45,778 nucleotides of DNA, from the NCBI GenBank assembly GCA_013202585.1, contig JABMPQ010000012.1, positions 1 through 45,778 of the forward strand, given 5' to 3'. Under the pieces are notes generated by a model. The model was not told where the DNA came from. It saw only the letters and a list, made by a program, of their open reading frames with translations, and searched no databases. This stretch comes from Parcubacteria group bacterium. GTDB lineage: Bacteria > Patescibacteriota > JABMPQ01. Below are positions 39,060-45,778 of this stretch, in pieces (the first letter of the stretch is position 1; the number at the start of each line of letters is the position of its first letter). A program made the translations under genes and the position numbers.

Positions 39060-39135
39060 GGGTTCGTAGCTCAGTTGGCAGAGCGTTTGCTCGACACGCA
39101 AAAGGTCACAGGTTCGAATCCTGTCGGACCCACCA
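39060..39135 (+). tRNA. tRNA-Val(GAC), atypical C33
   Basis: 76 nt cloverleaf; acceptor GGGTTCG/CGGACCC, anticodon stem TTTGC/GCAAA, loop TCGACAC, encoded CCA. Confidence 0.9.
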
Positions 39136-39163
39136 TCAATTTATTGTAAATAATTTTAACTTT

Positions 39164-39805
39164 ATGTCGCCAGAAAGAGGGGATGCAATAGAGCAGGAGA
39201 TGGAGATGGACGAAGGTACAGAAGAAATGGATAGAGGAGAATATTACCGGCGCGTGCGAGAAGCCAATCGCACGATAGAAGGAAGAGGAGAAAAAGAGAT
39301 CAGTGCTGATGATTTTGAAAGGCAATATCTCAGCGTGCTTAATAGGGGTTCGACCGAACCAACAGATGACCCTTATCAAAATTTTGAATCGCGAACTATT
39401 TTTGAATATTTTAAAGAAAGAGATCCGGACTTTCTTCGAGATGCTTATCGAGCGATGGAAATGGTTGCGCAGAAGCTTCGCAGCGAAAGAGATGAGTATG
39501 AAGAGGCAAATAATGGAATTATTAGGCTGCTTAGGGAAGGAAAAAGACTAAATGAAATAGGTAGGCATGATGAAGCCGATGCCCTTGGGGACGAGAGGGA
39601 TGCCTTGCTCAAAAGAATGAAAGAGATAAAAAAGCCCATTCACGCTATATCTTCTAATTTTGGCGGCTTAGCTCATCGAATAAGTGATGATGATGTATCT
39701 CCGATGCGGGAAAATGGCTTAAAAATCCGCGTCGGACGAATTATCGATGAGTATACTGACAACGAAGGGCGAGTTTTAGAAGAAGCCACTATAACGGACT
39801 CTTAA
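39164..39805 (+). CDS. Hypothetical acidic coiled-coil protein
   Basis: Start reset to MSPERGDAIEQEMEM after the tRNA; the supplied ORF N-terminus reads through tRNA-Val. Confidence 0.6.
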   Translation: MSPERGDAIEQEMEMDEGTEEMDRGEYYRRVREANRTIEGRGEKEISADDFERQYLSVLNRGSTEPTDDPYQNFESRTIFEYFKERDPDFLRDAYRAMEMVAQKLRSERDEYEEANNGIIRLLREGKRLNEIGRHDEADALGDERDALLKRMKEIKKPIHAISSNFGGLAHRISDDDVSPMRENGLKIRVGRIIDEYTDNEGRVLEEATITDS

Positions 39806-39833
39806 TATTTTTTAACCTATTTTTGAATGGCGT

Positions 39834-40223
39834 ATGAGCAATAAAAAACTACCAAAAATTATCAAGGAAGTTGGATTTGATTTTGACTGGAGTGAAAGCA
39901 AAGTTTGGGCGCTTGATTTTCCTGTTGAGGAAATTCCGCTTTCCGCCTTAGCTTGGCATTTCGATATACCATTTTGGGATTTCCTAGATGATAATTATAA
40001 CCTTGCTCCAAATCAAGTCATTTCTGATCCTGTGAAGTTTGAGATTGAATATAGCCGTACAATGAAAGCTGATTTATCGCATCCAATTGACATTATGAAG
40101 AACAAAGATCGTTGGTTAATTTTGGATGGTCTGCACAGACTTGTTAAGGCAAAAATTCTAGGTTACAATAAAGTCAGTGTTCGTAAAATTCCCAGAACGG
40201 AAATCTCAAAAATTCAAAAATAG
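39834..40223 (+). CDS. ParB-N-domain-like protein
   Basis: EEIPLSAL...HPIDIMKNKDRWLILDGLHRLVKAKILGYNKVSVRKI. Confidence 0.65.
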   Translation: MSNKKLPKIIKEVGFDFDWSESKVWALDFPVEEIPLSALAWHFDIPFWDFLDDNYNLAPNQVISDPVKFEIEYSRTMKADLSHPIDIMKNKDRWLILDGLHRLVKAKILGYNKVSVRKIPRTEISKIQK

Positions 40224-40261
40224 GTTAAAAAATCAATTTAATATTGCTCAAATTAAACATC

Positions 40262-40338
40262 GTCTAACACGGTATATCTGGTTCCGCTAACGTTACACCC
40301 AAATGCTAACGCACTTCAGATATACCGATACATTAGGC
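40262..40338 (+). repeat. attC-like imperfect hairpin
   Basis: GTCTAAC ... CGGTATATCTG ... CAGATATACCG ... ATTAGGC. Confidence 0.4.
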
Positions 40339-40361
40339 GATATTGTCTTTCTGTTTTTACG

Positions 40362-40390
40362 AACTGTTCAATTATTCGGACAGTTTTTTT
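40362..40390 (+). terminator. Rho-independent terminator
   Basis: aactgt...acagtt + T tract. Confidence 0.7.
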
Positions 40391-40485
40391 GTAAAAAAAG
40401 AAGACCTCCAGCCAGATGATCTGAACACGGAGGTCGATAGGATAAAAAGCGACGAAGCGTTTCGCTAGGTATCAATAATGAACTA

Positions 40486-40677
40486 TTAAAGACAAAGGAG
40501 CGCAACACCTCTGAACTGCGGGTTGGTTTCGACATTAGTCCATGCCTCAACTCTGTGATCTGGGCGGTCGCACTTCTCCTCATGCTGAAGAAAAAACCAT
40601 CGCTCCTCGGCTGTTAATTCCTCATTAGAGTCTTGAACCCTTTGAGCTATTTCTTCAAACCTCTCACAATCGTTCAA
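40486..40677 (-). CDS. Small hypothetical protein, probable TTG start
   Basis: Strong SD (AGGAGGTGA) upstream of TTG-AAC-GAT; 63 aa. Confidence 0.55.
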   Translation of the reverse strand: MNDCERFEEIAQRVQDSNEELTAEERWFFLQHEEKCDRPDHRVEAWTNVETNPQFRGVALLCL

Positions 40678-40913
40678 GTGTCACCTCCTCTTTAGTTTGC
40701 CTATTTTAATAATAAGTAAACATAATTATTTTTTTTATAAATCTACTTTTTAAGAAAGGGGAAAAATAAGTTTTTTAAGAATTAGGATTTAGAAGGGGTA
40801 ATACCAAGGTGTTTTTTTCGCTCCTAACGTCGCTCAGAAAATTTTTATTGATTTTTTAATGAAAAGACAGTATATTGGGGCTGTATAATATTTAAATCTA
40901 AACCACCTAACTT

Positions 40914-42176
40914 ATGAAAGGATTTCCTAATCAAATAGCTGATCTCGGCAAAATTGCCCTTGGTATGGAGTCTTTGATATCTATAGTCAATCAAGGTGGC
41001 AATGCGAAAGATGACGGTATTTTTGGGCAAGCATTAGTCCGGACTGGTGTTGTAGGTACTGGACATATACCCATGCCTATAGATGAATATATTCGCCAAC
41101 AGTTAGAAAAATCGGTAAGCGACCAGAGCTTCCGCACAACTGCCAGAGGATTGCGTGAACTCTATAGACTATTAGGATTTATAGATGATTCAAATCCCGC
41201 AATCGAGATCACTGACCTTGGCAGAAAAGCATCCTCATACGCCCACATGTCAATGAATTCCGAGCAAATGGATTTTTGGAGGATGTCAATTCGCAATATG
41301 ACACAAATCGATGACGATGGAAATACTTCACATCCATATCAAGTGCTACTGCGTTTAGTTGGACAAAAATCTGGTATTACTAGAGCCAAGTGCGCGCTCG
41401 CCTTAGAAGCAAGTGACGACTCTTCGGACGAATTAGCAAGGATAGTAGCGCTTGCAGATCTTCCAGAGGAAGAAATTCAAACACAAATTGAAGTCACCAA
41501 ATCAAACTGGGATAACGCAAAAAAGGTATTACCTGCGTTTGCTGAACAGCTAAACGATGTTATTAGAAGCGGTCAGTCGTTTACATTAGCTGATGCTCCC
41601 GGGCGAGCAGATGTTGGTATTGTCGAAGAGACGACAAGACAGGCAGTTGTGCGTGCCCCTCGCACTTCACGCTCGGTGATTCCAGATACTATCGGACGGG
41701 CTGGCCTCGAACGCATCTCTGACGAGGCAACACCATCACAAGGAATTGCCCCTGAAGCAGTTGCTGAAACGAATAGACTACGTCACGATAGACTACATCG
41801 ACATAATATCATTGTGAGAGAACTAGCGACGCGTTTTACGGATATGCAGTTATACGAGGATCCTTTTGACTTACTAGCTCTAACCAACGATATCGGTATT
41901 CTCGTGGAAGTAAAGACACTGAATGGAACTGAAGCGGATGAAGTAGCCCGAGTGCGAGAAGCGCTTTCACAGCTTTTATACTACGAGGCATTTGTTACGA
42001 CTCCTATTGCCGGAACTACGGTCGTTCGTAAAATTGCTTGTTTTGAAAATTCTATAAGCGAGGAACATAGAGAATGGCTAAATCAATCAGGAATTGCGGT
42101 AATTTGGAAGAACAGTGATGCTGGTTACATGGGCGATGCTCTTGCTCGTGCGACACTAAGCGACTTTCTCGATTGA
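40914..42176 (+). CDS. Candidate restriction endonuclease (wHTH-like N-terminus, PD-(D/E)XK-like C-terminus)
   Basis: C-terminal YEDPFDLLALTNDIGILVEVKTL...ALSQLLYYEAF fits D-x(n)-EVK; convergent neighbour of two DNA methyltransferases. Confidence 0.6.
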   Translation: MKGFPNQIADLGKIALGMESLISIVNQGGNAKDDGIFGQALVRTGVVGTGHIPMPIDEYIRQQLEKSVSDQSFRTTARGLRELYRLLGFIDDSNPAIEITDLGRKASSYAHMSMNSEQMDFWRMSIRNMTQIDDDGNTSHPYQVLLRLVGQKSGITRAKCALALEASDDSSDELARIVALADLPEEEIQTQIEVTKSNWDNAKKVLPAFAEQLNDVIRSGQSFTLADAPGRADVGIVEETTRQAVVRAPRTSRSVIPDTIGRAGLERISDEATPSQGIAPEAVAETNRLRHDRLHRHNIIVRELATRFTDMQLYEDPFDLLALTNDIGILVEVKTLNGTEADEVARVREALSQLLYYEAFVTTPIAGTTVVRKIACFENSISEEHREWLNQSGIAVIWKNSDAGYMGDALARATLSDFLD

Positions 42177-42185
42177 TCTCGTGTG

Positions 42186-42941
42186 TTAAATATTCCTAAG
42201 ACGCTTGTTGCTGATTCTAATATAATCAGGATTCAATTCAATTCCTATAAAATCGCGACCATTTTTCTTAGCACTTACACATTCACTCCCAGAACCTGCA
42301 AATGGTACAAATACCATGTCCCCTTTGTTCGAGAAATGTCTTATTATTCGATCGCAGATGGCAATAGGTTTTTGAGTGGGATGATCAACTCTCTCCTTTG
42401 CAAAACTTTTTCCGGCTAGCACTGGTATGCACCATACGTCTCCTACGTGCTTACCTTCCGGATTAGGTTTCCATTCTTTACCATTTTTAGTGATTTTATA
42501 TTTCAGTCGTTCTGTACTTTCATACGCTTCACGTATAGGATGATATGTAAATTTTTTGCCTTTATAAAACCAAAGAAGCGGTTCATAATTCCCCGGGGGT
42601 AATTTGGTATATCCAGACCAGTTATTTTTATAATGCCACACTAATTGGCGACCATAGGTAAGTCCAAGATCATACAAATAGCATTGCACATATCCGATGT
42701 TATGGTGGATGCCGTATACAAATATTGATCCTCCTGATTTTAACACTCTATGGGCTTCTTCCAGCCATTCCTGCATCCATACCATCCACTTATCGTGTTT
42801 ATCGAGGCCCCATTTTTCTTTACCCCCAAAATCCATTTCGATTCCGTAAGGAGGATCGGCAATTATTAAGTCAATCGATTCATCATCGATTTTTTTAATT
42901 AACTTAAGGGTATCTCCTTCGTAGATCTTATTTTTTTTCAT
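42186..42941 (-). CDS. DNA methyltransferase, beta-class-like (DPPY first, FAGSGS last)
   Basis: LIIADPPYGIEMDFGG ... HPTQKPIAICDRIIRHFSNKGDMVFVPFAGSGSECVSAKKNGRDFIGIEL. Confidence 0.93.
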   Translation of the reverse strand: MKKNKIYEGDTLKLIKKIDDESIDLIIADPPYGIEMDFGGKEKWGLDKHDKWMVWMQEWLEEAHRVLKSGGSIFVYGIHHNIGYVQCYLYDLGLTYGRQLVWHYKNNWSGYTKLPPGNYEPLLWFYKGKKFTYHPIREAYESTERLKYKITKNGKEWKPNPEGKHVGDVWCIPVLAGKSFAKERVDHPTQKPIAICDRIIRHFSNKGDMVFVPFAGSGSECVSAKKNGRDFIGIELNPDYIRISNKRLRNI

Positions 42942-44451
42942 ATTTTTTCGGCTCTGAGATTTCTTTATTTTGAAGAATAAGAATATATTGATGATGGATG
43001 TTGGGTACGTATGAATAAGGATAACCGTATGGAAATATTTTTTTGTGGCGCTGATATAATATAGTTATTCCTTTTAATGCGAAATTACCTAATTCAAGTT
43101 TTTGTGCCAAGTCAGAATGAAACATATACAGCCTACCTTTATGCCTAAAATCACTTACAATCACACAAAGATATTTTTTAGGTTTCAATATCCTACTGCA
43201 GTCATTAAAAAATCCCGAAAGAATATCAATGAACTTATCATAATTATCAATATTACCAAGATCATTTTTTAGATTTGAATAGTTAGTATCTAAATTATTA
43301 GCTACTCTTTCTTGTTTGACCTTATGATCTGCTTTTTTATTTAGTATATTCCAATAAGGTGGGCTTGTAACAATAAAATCAAAATAATCATCTTCAAATT
43401 CTTGAATTTTCTTTAAAGAGTCACCACGTATAATCTTTTGATTTCTATTAGTCGTACTAAACAAGTCATCATTTAATTCTTTCTGCAGACGTTCTTTCGT
43501 AAGATCAACATACTTCTTTACCAGCTCAATACCAACGCCTTCTCTACTGTTTACTGCACAAGCTTTCAGTGTTGAGCTAACTCCACTAAAGGGATCCAGA
43601 ACACGTTGGCCTTTTTTAGTAAAAAATTTAATCAATCTCCCAACATCTTGAAATGAAAATGGAGCGGGATGCTGTCTTTCGATTTTTGTATCTTCATGAT
43701 TAGCACCTAATCCTTTTTGAGTGAATACTGAAATAGTTTCTTGAATCCATTCTTGTCCAGTAAGATCATTTAATTTATTTATTAATTTTCTTTTCGAAGT
43801 TTTTTTCTTTGGAGATATGACTTTATCACTAGTATCCATCTCATACGCTGGCGTTGTTTTATTTCGAATCACGTCCAAAACAACCCCCTGTATTTCAAAA
43901 GGAGTATTTCTTTTAATAATTATTGGCTCTATAGTTTTATTTGCTGGTTGAAGTCGTATCCGACCATGCTCTTTGTAAAACTTTTTCAAGGTTGCCTCTT
44001 GGTTATTAATCAACGCAACAACTTTTTGACCATTTTCCGCAAAACTTTGATGCTTAACCAAAACAACATCATTATCATATATATTCTCGTCAATCATACT
44101 ATCACCGACTACACGCAACGCATAGATACTTGAAGTTGTCCTCAGCCTATTTTTGGGGATAGTTATTGTTTCTTTCTCACGAACTGCCTCAATCGGCTGA
44201 CCAGCAGCAATGGAACCCAACAATGGAATCCTTATCATTGCTCCATCATCAATTACGTTAATAGAGCGCGGCTTGTTTTTTTCCTTTGCTAAGTACCCTA
44301 AATCACGAAGTTTAGAAATATGAAAATGCGCCGTAGAAACAGACGCTAATTTAAACTTTTTTCTTATCTCCTCAAGTGCAGGAGAATATCCTTTTCGCTT
44401 TTGATAACCTTTTACGAAATCAAAAACCTCTTTTTGACGTTTTGTAAGCAT
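42928..44451 (-). CDS. LexA repressor (HTH + S24 peptidase) fused to SPPY DNA methyltransferase
   Basis: aa 1-~200: full LexA (KLASVSTAHFHISKLRDLGY HTH, IAA-GQP cleavage site, VVGDSM Ser118, ATLKKF Lys156). aa ~220-507: DPFSGVSSTLKACAV...GIEL and TSPPYWN. Confidence 0.93.
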   Translation of the reverse strand: MLTKRQKEVFDFVKGYQKRKGYSPALEEIRKKFKLASVSTAHFHISKLRDLGYLAKEKNKPRSINVIDDGAMIRIPLLGSIAAGQPIEAVREKETITIPKNRLRTTSSIYALRVVGDSMIDENIYDNDVVLVKHQSFAENGQKVVALINNQEATLKKFYKEHGRIRLQPANKTIEPIIIKRNTPFEIQGVVLDVIRNKTTPAYEMDTSDKVISPKKKTSKRKLINKLNDLTGQEWIQETISVFTQKGLGANHEDTKIERQHPAPFSFQDVGRLIKFFTKKGQRVLDPFSGVSSTLKACAVNSREGVGIELVKKYVDLTKERLQKELNDDLFSTTNRNQKIIRGDSLKKIQEFEDDYFDFIVTSPPYWNILNKKADHKVKQERVANNLDTNYSNLKNDLGNIDNYDKFIDILSGFFNDCSRILKPKKYLCVIVSDFRHKGRLYMFHSDLAQKLELGNFALKGITILYQRHKKIFPYGYPYSYVPNIHHQYILILQNKEISEPKKYEKK

Positions 44452-44470
44452 GTTATGAATTAAATGTGTA

Positions 44471-44498
44471 TTGACGTTATCTTTACAAGTAGTATACT
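44471..44498 (+). promoter_or_regulatory. Sigma70-like promoter toward the TIR gene
   Basis: TTGACG-N16-TATACT. Confidence 0.6.
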
Positions 44499-44520
44499 AG
44501 AAAATGAATAGAAAGTCCAA
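44491..44520 (-). promoter_or_regulatory. Sigma70-like promoter toward lexA-methyltransferase
   Basis: Minus strand TTGGAC-N18-TATACT; the -10 overlaps the opposing promoter's -10. Confidence 0.55.
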
Positions 44521-44529
44521 ATAGGACTT
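44513..44529. promoter_or_regulatory. Operator-like inverted repeat AAGTCC-N5-GGACTT
   Basis: Perfect 6-bp arms overlapping the minus-strand -35 and just downstream of the plus-strand -10. Confidence 0.5.
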
Positions 44530-44559
44530 ATCCCCAATTAATAATTAATAATAAAAAAT

Positions 44560-44997
44560 ATGGGAAATAAAAAAGAAGTTTTTGTAAGTTTTGACTACGA
44601 AAACGATAAACATTATAAATATCTCTTAGAGGCGTGGGATGCAAATGATGAATTTGATTTTGTTTTTAGCGACAAAACCCCGACTGAAATTAACAGCGAA
44701 AACATTGAGCCAATTAAAGCAGGGCTTACAAAAAAAATCAAAGAGGCAACTCATACTTTGGTAATAGTTGGCGAAGAAGCCAACTATCAGCATAGTAACC
44801 ACGAGTTAATTGGCTACAAGAACTGGATTAATTTTGAAGTAGCCAAGAGCATAGAAGACGGGAACAGAATCGCTGTCGTAAGACTTGAAAATAACTACAC
44901 GCTTCCTGAAGAAATCCACGAAGGCGAATATTCTATTGTAGAAGGATACACAGAAAGTAATATAATCGATGTTCTGGACAACGCTCCAGAAAATTAA
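44560..44997 (+). CDS. ThsB/DUF1863-like TIR-fold protein
   Basis: VFVSFDYENDKHYKYLLEAWDANDEFDFVFSDKTP...IKEATHTLVIVGEEA...WINFEVAKSIEDGNRIAVVRL. Confidence 0.85.
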   Translation: MGNKKEVFVSFDYENDKHYKYLLEAWDANDEFDFVFSDKTPTEINSENIEPIKAGLTKKIKEATHTLVIVGEEANYQHSNHELIGYKNWINFEVAKSIEDGNRIAVVRLENNYTLPEEIHEGEYSIVEGYTESNIIDVLDNAPEN

Positions 44998-44999
44998 TA

Positions 45000-45607
45000 T
45001 GAGCATTGTTTCTAGTGATGCAAAATTTACTGCGCTACATGAGCATTACAATAACACTTTTACCAACATAAAAGAGTCGATCAAATTACGTGATAAACTA
45101 ACGGCTTTAATTCTTGTCATATTGTTGTTTGTGGTGTTATTTGTATTTTGGCCTACCGATGCGACAATAGCACTTACTCAAATATCTACAGAAAAATTAG
45201 GTTTAGCTATAAGCTTCGATGAAGGATTTCTTGGTAGTATTATTTGGTTTGCATTATTGATTGCGATAGTACGATATACGCAAACAGTTGTTTATATAGA
45301 GCGACAGTATGCATATATTCATCGCCTAGAAGAAAAGTTGCATATACATTTCAGGGACGAAATAACTTTTACAAGAGAAGGTAAATCTTATCTGCAAAAA
45401 TACCCTAAATTTTCAGATTGGATATGGACATTATATATGATTATCTTTCCTTCTCTTTTAGTAGTTGTTATTTTAATAAACATTATAGGTGAATGGGCGA
45501 ACTTTTTTCCTGAGATATCTGCGTCATTAGTACTTAATACCTTAATTGTGATTTGTATCTTGATCTCAATCGCTTTTTACCTACTTTTTATGTACTACCA
45601 AAAATAG
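45000..45607 (+). CDS. Four-TM (2+2) membrane protein, possible effector
   Basis: Starts 2 nt after the TIR stop; four hydrophobic segments; internal start MSIVSSDAKF chosen over the overlapping 44969 start. Confidence 0.75.
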
Positions 45608-45628
45608 TAATAAAAAAAATATGGGGAA

Positions 45629-45678
45629 GTTTTGGGGAAAGTCCATTCACCCCTACCCCTCTGTCCTTTCCCCAAAAC
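45629..45678. repeat. 13-bp perfect inverted repeat hairpin
   Basis: gttttggggaaag ... ctttccccaaaac downstream of the TM gene. Confidence 0.85.
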
Positions 45679-45778
45679 AAAAAACTTATTTTAAGATTTA
45701 AAAAAAATAATTAAGAAAAAAATTACATCGCACAACAGCGCATATGAGGTTCGTAAAAAAGTGAAAATTTTGATAAGA

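Follow-up and report, generated by a model that had tools for sequence, protein, structure and literature searches.

In restriction systems, methylation must stay ahead of cutting. The known controls of restriction-modification (R-M) genes, among them C proteins, methyltransferases bearing a helix-turn-helix (HTH) domain and antisense promoters, operate without damage sensing. The CapH/CapP pair of CBASS includes a repressor that lies beside immune operons and is inactivated after DNA damage. The same arrangement is reported for CapK/CapS (PMC13373217). The proteins and the sensing of both pairs are unlike those of the locus reported here, and neither pair is fused to a restriction-modification enzyme. 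RptR is a transcriptional repressor of R-M genes in a defence island (PMC12255303), but it is a separate protein with neither LexA nor autocleavage, and LexA is absent from the text of that article.

The methyltransferases M.SsoII and M.Ecl18kI carry an N-terminal DNA-binding domain that represses their own promoter in a divergent region (PMC3978073, PMC6100179, PMC3695355). In the case of LexA, the alphaproteobacterial box is a direct repeat, GTTC-N7-GTTC (PMC8565304), and a further article cites a 2017 study of the SOS network of Patescibacteria beside a statement on direct-repeat LexA motifs (PMC7739468).

The window, that is, the whole stretch of 45,778 nucleotides that was analysed, is an entire contig (C4, ending at 45778) of a 1.22-Mb genome that is 79% complete and lies on 78 contigs. 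Its main protein joins a LexA half to a DNA methyltransferase (Table 1). The LexA half scores 180.5 bits with TIGR00498 (cut-off 110.95), 51.5 bits with PF01726 and 100.1 bits with PF00717; both LexA domains, HTH and S24, are complete and over the curated cut-offs, and the closest PDB structure is the LexA repressor 3k2z. The residues A83 and G84 of the cleavage site and the S118/K156 dyad are invariant in 21 aligned fusions, and a RecA gene is present in the genome. The fusion resembles the LexA of the SOS response in its HTH and S24 domains, its self-cleavage residues and a direct repeat with a period of 11 bp. It differs in being fused to a DNA methyltransferase, in half-sites of the form TTTCTA, TTTCGG or TTTCGA rather than GTTCGN, and in that the only copy of its exact operator lies at its own gene. 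With M.SsoII and M.Ecl18kI it shares a DNA-binding domain at the N-terminus of an R-M methyltransferase and a site in a divergent promoter region. However, the N-terminus of those enzymes is a 71-residue, C-protein-like HTH without a sensor, placed on a C5 methyltransferase, whereas the fusions carry a full LexA on many methyltransferase classes; the window protein, with LexA on an N6/N4-type enzyme, falls outside a class defined by a short HTH on a C5 methyltransferase. The gene order also differs, since the endonuclease gene is divergent in those systems, while in the window the putative endonuclease is convergent and the TIR gene divergent.

Table 1. Positions of genes and control elements in the window
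Feature	Position	Strand	Remarks
Putative restriction endonuclease, 420 aa	40914-42176	+	convergent; stop codons 9 bp apart
Second DNA methyltransferase (N6_N4_Mtase)	42186-42941	-	same operon; overlaps the end of the fusion
LexA (residues 1-200) + N6/N4 DNA methyltransferase (about 210-500), 507 aa	42928-44451	-	
-35 TTGACG, divergent (TIR) promoter	44471-44476	+	spacer N16
Palindrome TAGTATACTA	44490-44499	.	product of two overlapping -10s
-10 TATACT, lexA-MTase promoter	44491-44496 (plus AGTATA)	-	
-10 TATACT, divergent promoter	44493-44498	+	overlaps minus -10; last base is the operator's first base
Candidate LexA-type operator TTTCTA-TTCAT-TTTCTA	44498-44514	-	period 11 bp; lag-11 repeat in homologous promoters
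Inverted repeat AAGTCC-N5-GGACTT	44513-44529	.	probably coincidental
Alternative -35 TGGACT, lexA-MTase promoter	44514-44519	-	spacer 17
-35 TTGGAC, lexA-MTase promoter	44515-44520 (plus GTCCAA)	-	spacer 18
GGGGATAA, variant of the DnaA-box-like TGTGGATAA element	44528-44535	-	
ThsB-type TIR protein, divergent gene	44560-44997	+	PF08937 44.9 bits
Multi-TM protein, candidate membrane effector	44999-45607	+	hydrophobic segments, no family match

A search of 384 genomes from the phylum with the LexA half yielded many matching ORFs of 470-632 aa, and 22 fusions, the window's included, were recovered. A scan of a separate collection (genome_contigs), made with an alignment of 21 LexA halves, added about 30, nearly all from named CPR lineages (Ryan-, Taga-, Kaiser-, Nomura-, Berkel-, Levy-, Harrison-, Jorgensen-, Staskawicz-, Zambryski-, Curtiss- and Kuenenbacteria). 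The hosts from outside the CPR were one Elusimicrobia and two Omnitrophica MAGs; contamination of the bins is possible for MAGs in general. The family comprises more than 50 fusions, mostly from CPR bacteria. Among phages and plasmids, no full-length fusion covering 80% of the query was found; one IMG/VR contig carries a fusion (L205). No description of LexA-methyltransferase fusions was found in a search of open-access literature. In a LexA tree built with fasttree, several forks of which are weak, most fusions group away from the chromosomal LexAs, with 9 label changes where shuffles gave 43.6.

The C-terminal halves of the fusions fall into eight sequence clusters that include N6/N4 enzymes, C5-cytosine enzymes with the GFPCQ motif, and others. 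The gene beside a fusion is usually convergent to it, with stop codons that overlap or lie a few bases apart. These neighbours match the MamI, BglII, HindIII, MvaI/BcnI, ScaI, EcoRV and BsaWI (twice) nucleases, as well as AlwI, NgoFVII and MutH-type nucleases and the REase_II of PADLOC. Judged from such matches, a fusion and its matched neighbour are a complete type II system with a LexA-bearing methyltransferase. The components of a type II system recognised in the window are the DNA methyltransferases. Its 420-aa protein is a putative restriction endonuclease by position and by an EVK motif; it has no family match and no homologue in the 384 phylum genomes, and its single-sequence structural model (mean pLDDT 35) was not used.

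At another locus (L055, 4965-6095, minus strand), a MerR/HTH_17 domain replaces LexA on a related methyltransferase that is 50% identical to the fused one of the window, and its neighbour is a relative (38%) of the second methyltransferase. This MerR-type relative supports the view that the N-terminal half is an exchangeable autoregulatory module. The genome also has a second LexA-like gene (L062:8126-8800, G000:C63), which is divergent, has Cys-Gly at the cleavage position and contains TTAGTATATT...AATATACTAA in its promoter.

The 108-bp intergenic region 44452-44559 separates the minus-strand gene 42928-44451 from the plus-strand gene 44560-44997. An earlier note on this region had placed in it two divergent promoters with a common palindromic -10 and an operator-like inverted repeat, and every element it named was found at its position. 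Chance expectations were obtained from 2000 dinucleotide shuffles of the 108 bp. A gapless palindrome as long as TAGTATACTA (10 bp) had P=0.22 and gapped 6-bp arms, as in AAGTCC-N5-GGACTT, P=0.36. For the promoters, a minus one of at least 9/12 had P=0.34 and a plus one of at least 10/12 P=0.06, which is marginally beyond chance when taken alone; both together had P=0.026. A 6-mer direct repeat at lag 11 appeared in 2.4% of the shuffles. Without comparison to homologous loci, what was observed in the window is weak. Across those loci, both the minus and the divergent promoter are found again and the shared -10 recurs in a subset, while the palindromes are mostly absent: most homologous loci lack both.

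The element that recurs is one that had been missed, a perfect direct repeat with the plus-strand form TAGAAA-N5-TAGAAA (44498-44514), which reads TTTCTATTCATTTTCTA on the minus strand (44514-44498). It fills the spacer between the -35 and the -10 of the lexA-MTase promoter, and at its edge it shares one base, the last, with the plus -10. Of the 22 fusions, 18 have a perfect 6-mer repeat with a lag of 11 upstream, whereas no other lag between 7 and 24 gives more than two, and the pattern recurs in the fusion loci of genome_contigs. In total, 40 of 49 fusion promoters, a non-redundant set with near-duplicates removed, have this repeat, and at most four have one at any of 23 other lags. The half-sites of the fusions are TTTCTA, TTTCGG or TTTCGA. 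Stand-alone lexA promoters present the same design (38 of 94 at lag 11), with half-sites GTTCGG, GTTCTA or GTTCGT, as in GTTCGG-N5-GTTCGG, which indicates that the element of the fusions is a LexA-type box. The first base of the half-site is T in 73 of 90 cases for the fusions and G in 30 of 46 for the stand-alone genes of CPR; this difference is consistent with private operators for the fusions.

Of the 44 fusion promoters with an xTTC-N7-xTTC pair, 30 have a -10-like hexamer immediately after the operator, and the pair is missing from 5 of 50 promoters. The -35 TTGGAC of the window is also found at one other fusion locus (L104), and others have TTGAT or TTGACA. In its own genome (1.22 Mb, 79% complete), the exact operator is present in a single copy; with at most one mismatch there were 27 matches, below the 44 of a reversed-pattern control. 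By this measure, an exact-operator count in a 79% complete genome, the LexA of the fusion appears to have no multi-gene SOS regulon. No convincing copies of the operator were seen at the promoters of the restriction endonuclease genes.

The palindrome TAGTATACTA was also considered as a LexA box and was rejected, being unique in the genome and not the element common to the fusion promoters. A likeness between it and the TTAGTATATT...AATATACTAA of the LexA-like gene at L001/L062 was dropped, as it came without motif evidence.

Some further features of the fusion promoters were noted. At five loci (L036, L038, L041, L044 and L205) the operator is reversed and lies inside the spacer of the divergent promoter, accompanied at L038 and L041 by a forward copy. 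Of 54 fusion promoters, 27 (L035, L037 and L046, for instance) have a perfect 9-mer, the DnaA-box-like TGTGGATAA, 5' of the -35; its orientation is the same in 25 of the 27, and the background is 0.0027 per 110 nt. A link of this element to replication is possible; no DnaA-box clusters beside a recognisable dnaA were seen on the two contigs inspected. Three loci (L036, L038 and L041) have in common a structured-looking sequence of about 100 nt, GCCCGCTG...CAGCGAG...GGCGGTCTT, upstream of the fusion and between it and a conserved coiled-coil-like gene.

The elements in the DNA, their conservation, the catalytic residues, the RecA gene and the single exact operator are established at the level of sequence, and on these we propose, as the probable reading, a negatively autoregulated two-way switch around the LexA-methyltransferase fusion that is relieved by DNA damage. 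The LexA half, probably as a dimer, would bind TTTCTA-N5-TTTCTA at 44498-44514. Bound there, it would block the lexA-MTase operon by means of the operator in the -35/-10 spacer, and probably also the TIR-TM promoter, at the last base of whose -10 the operator starts; RNA polymerase would use only one of the two overlapping promoters at a time. RecA filaments would arise after DNA damage, after cutting of the cell's own DNA by the linked endonuclease or on the entry of foreign single-stranded DNA, and on them the LexA half is predicted to cleave itself at Ala83-Gly84 through the Ser118/Lys156 dyad, freeing the operator and releasing an S24-methyltransferase fragment. Derepression would raise the synthesis of the methyltransferase and presumably open the divergent defence gene. 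The convergent endonuclease gene, which has no operator and abuts the methyltransferase operon, may be dampened by opposing transcription. For the general logic, M.Ecl18kI, with its HTH and its block on its own promoter in a divergent control region, is a precedent (PMC3695355). Since restriction imbalance has been reported to induce SOS (PMC3874152), the proposed loop would be self-correcting.

The two overlapping divergent promoters of the earlier note were borne out by the homologous loci. A reverse promoter of at least 10/12 is present in 17 of 50 fusion loci, with 1.4 expected and a maximum of 6 in 300 shuffles, and one of at least 11/12 in 6 of 50 (0.1 expected, shuffle maximum 1). Near the ATG, 19 of 50 fusion leaders have the reverse TTGAC (GTCAA) within their final 45 nt, where 2.7 were expected and 300 shuffles gave 8 at most. 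At stand-alone lexA promoters, a reverse promoter of at least 10/12 occurs in only 2 of 91. This enrichment at the fusions, which the stand-alone lexA genes do not show, speaks against a reading in which the direct repeat serves autorepression only, and the TIR promoter is unregulated or its TTGACG/TATACT pair unused. That reading, which we hold to be unlikely though of some weight, draws on the plus promoter of the window, marginal by itself (P=0.06), and on the TIR gene, which is not conserved as a partner. Genes of other kinds lie opposite the window's homologues, so that conservation in orthologues does not bear on control of the TIR gene. Against the reading of autorepression only stands also an independent locus (L047), in which a stand-alone LexA of the fusion clade lies beside an AlwI-like system, with its gene 58 bp from that of a CBASS cyclase. 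The cyclase promoter there, TTGACT-N16-TAAACT-AGAAAATAAATAGAAAG, has the operator directly after the -10, which repeats the layout of the window.

The idea of a shared -10 stood in part. The two -10s overlap in eight loci, namely the window, L035, L037, L108 and L109 (offset -2) and L047, L126 and L127 (offset +1); in several other fusion loci they are separated by 4-9 bp and are not shared. A strict test, which required the reverse -10 to overlap the own -10 at 9/12, gave 11 cases against 5.8 expected and was not decisive. The -35 test, with 7 observed against 0.86 expected, was decisive, as was the free reverse-promoter test; control spacings gave counts of 6 (at 22-24) and 4 (at 13-15), and these fix the exact spacing only in part. 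These comparisons support a divergent promoter conserved at the fusion loci, with a shared -10 in a subset of them and a looser form in many.

The S24 part could be a dimerisation module and nothing else, which would make the fusion a constitutive autoregulator of the SsoII kind with no DNA-damage response. Autoregulators that are linked to a methyltransferase and free of a sensor do exist (M.SsoII, M.Ecl18kI and the MerR-type relative at L055), but the cleavage site and the Ser/Lys dyad are invariant in 21 of 21 fusions, which would be unexpected without selection for cleavage, and RecA is encoded in the genome; we consider this reading quite unlikely.

At the Ecl18kI locus, M.Ecl18kI blocks the methyltransferase promoter in the divergent region and affects the endonuclease transcript (PMC3695355), and the promoters of the window overlap as they do there. 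Promoter competition of this kind, in which the bound fusion would free the polymerase and binding by LexA would raise the expression of TIR, is improbable here, however, since an operator extending from the last base of the plus -10 over the start region should block the TIR promoter too. The reading of the earlier note, a bistable switch with the inverted repeat at 44513-44529 as its operator, is highly improbable, because this repeat, although it exists and has two bases in common with the direct-repeat operator, is expected by chance (P=0.36) and is not seen in most homologous upstream regions, the family of the LexA half has a direct repeat as its conserved site, and the locus encodes neither a second repressor nor a positive loop. 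A switch of the CI/Cro type has two mutually repressing regulators, whereas the divergent genes of the window are those of a TIR and a TM protein. What does remain of that proposal is the position of a repressor site able to act on both promoters, the element being the direct repeat 44498-44514. A single autorepressor on both promoters would lead to homeostasis with derepression triggered by damage, not to bistability.

The damage-relieved switch would place a defence gene under the same control as the methyltransferase. No ThsA effector was found near the TIR gene; the gene that follows it is that of the multi-TM protein, which is unrelated to ThsA, and the contig ends at 45778. The two genes (44560-45607) may represent a Thoeris-like pair whose effector is a membrane protein and which the end of the contig truncates. 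At other fusion loci, the divergent genes encode CBASS components, which are a cyclase and a 2TM effector (L047), a 1TM effector and a cyclase (L045) or a cyclase (L108), or other defence proteins, which are a CapV-like phospholipase (L134), AbiTii (L037), PD-Lambda-3_B (L049) and Vsr (L050). The divergent genes tested belong to chosen loci, so this list carries no claim of over-representation, and at some fusion loci a divergent gene close by is missing, or is of a housekeeping or uncharacterised type.

More than 50 fusions, nearly all from CPR, suggest that restriction, often together with a second defence gene, has been tied to DNA damage in these bacteria. It is possible, and we advance it tentatively, that CPR bacteria have a widespread class of damage-gated R-M systems, in which an autocleavable LexA-methyltransferase acts on a private operator in a two-way promoter, and one damage signal both raises the protection of the host and arms a neighbouring, often suicidal, defence (CBASS, TIR, AbiTii). 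If so, a chromosome cut for lack of methylation would itself give the damage signal that releases more methyltransferase. Such a class, which recurs with many methyltransferases and endonucleases that are unrelated to one another and has a divergent promoter that faces suicide-type defences, would link restriction, SOS and abortive infection in bacteria whose regulation has hardly been studied.

In the window, a tRNA-Val gene (39060-39135) is followed by a low-GC region (39136-45778; 0.363 against 0.431). A genome of the same genus (G058) has a large transporter-like gene after the matching tRNA instead, and the region 39136-45778 looks, from these two observations, like an island.
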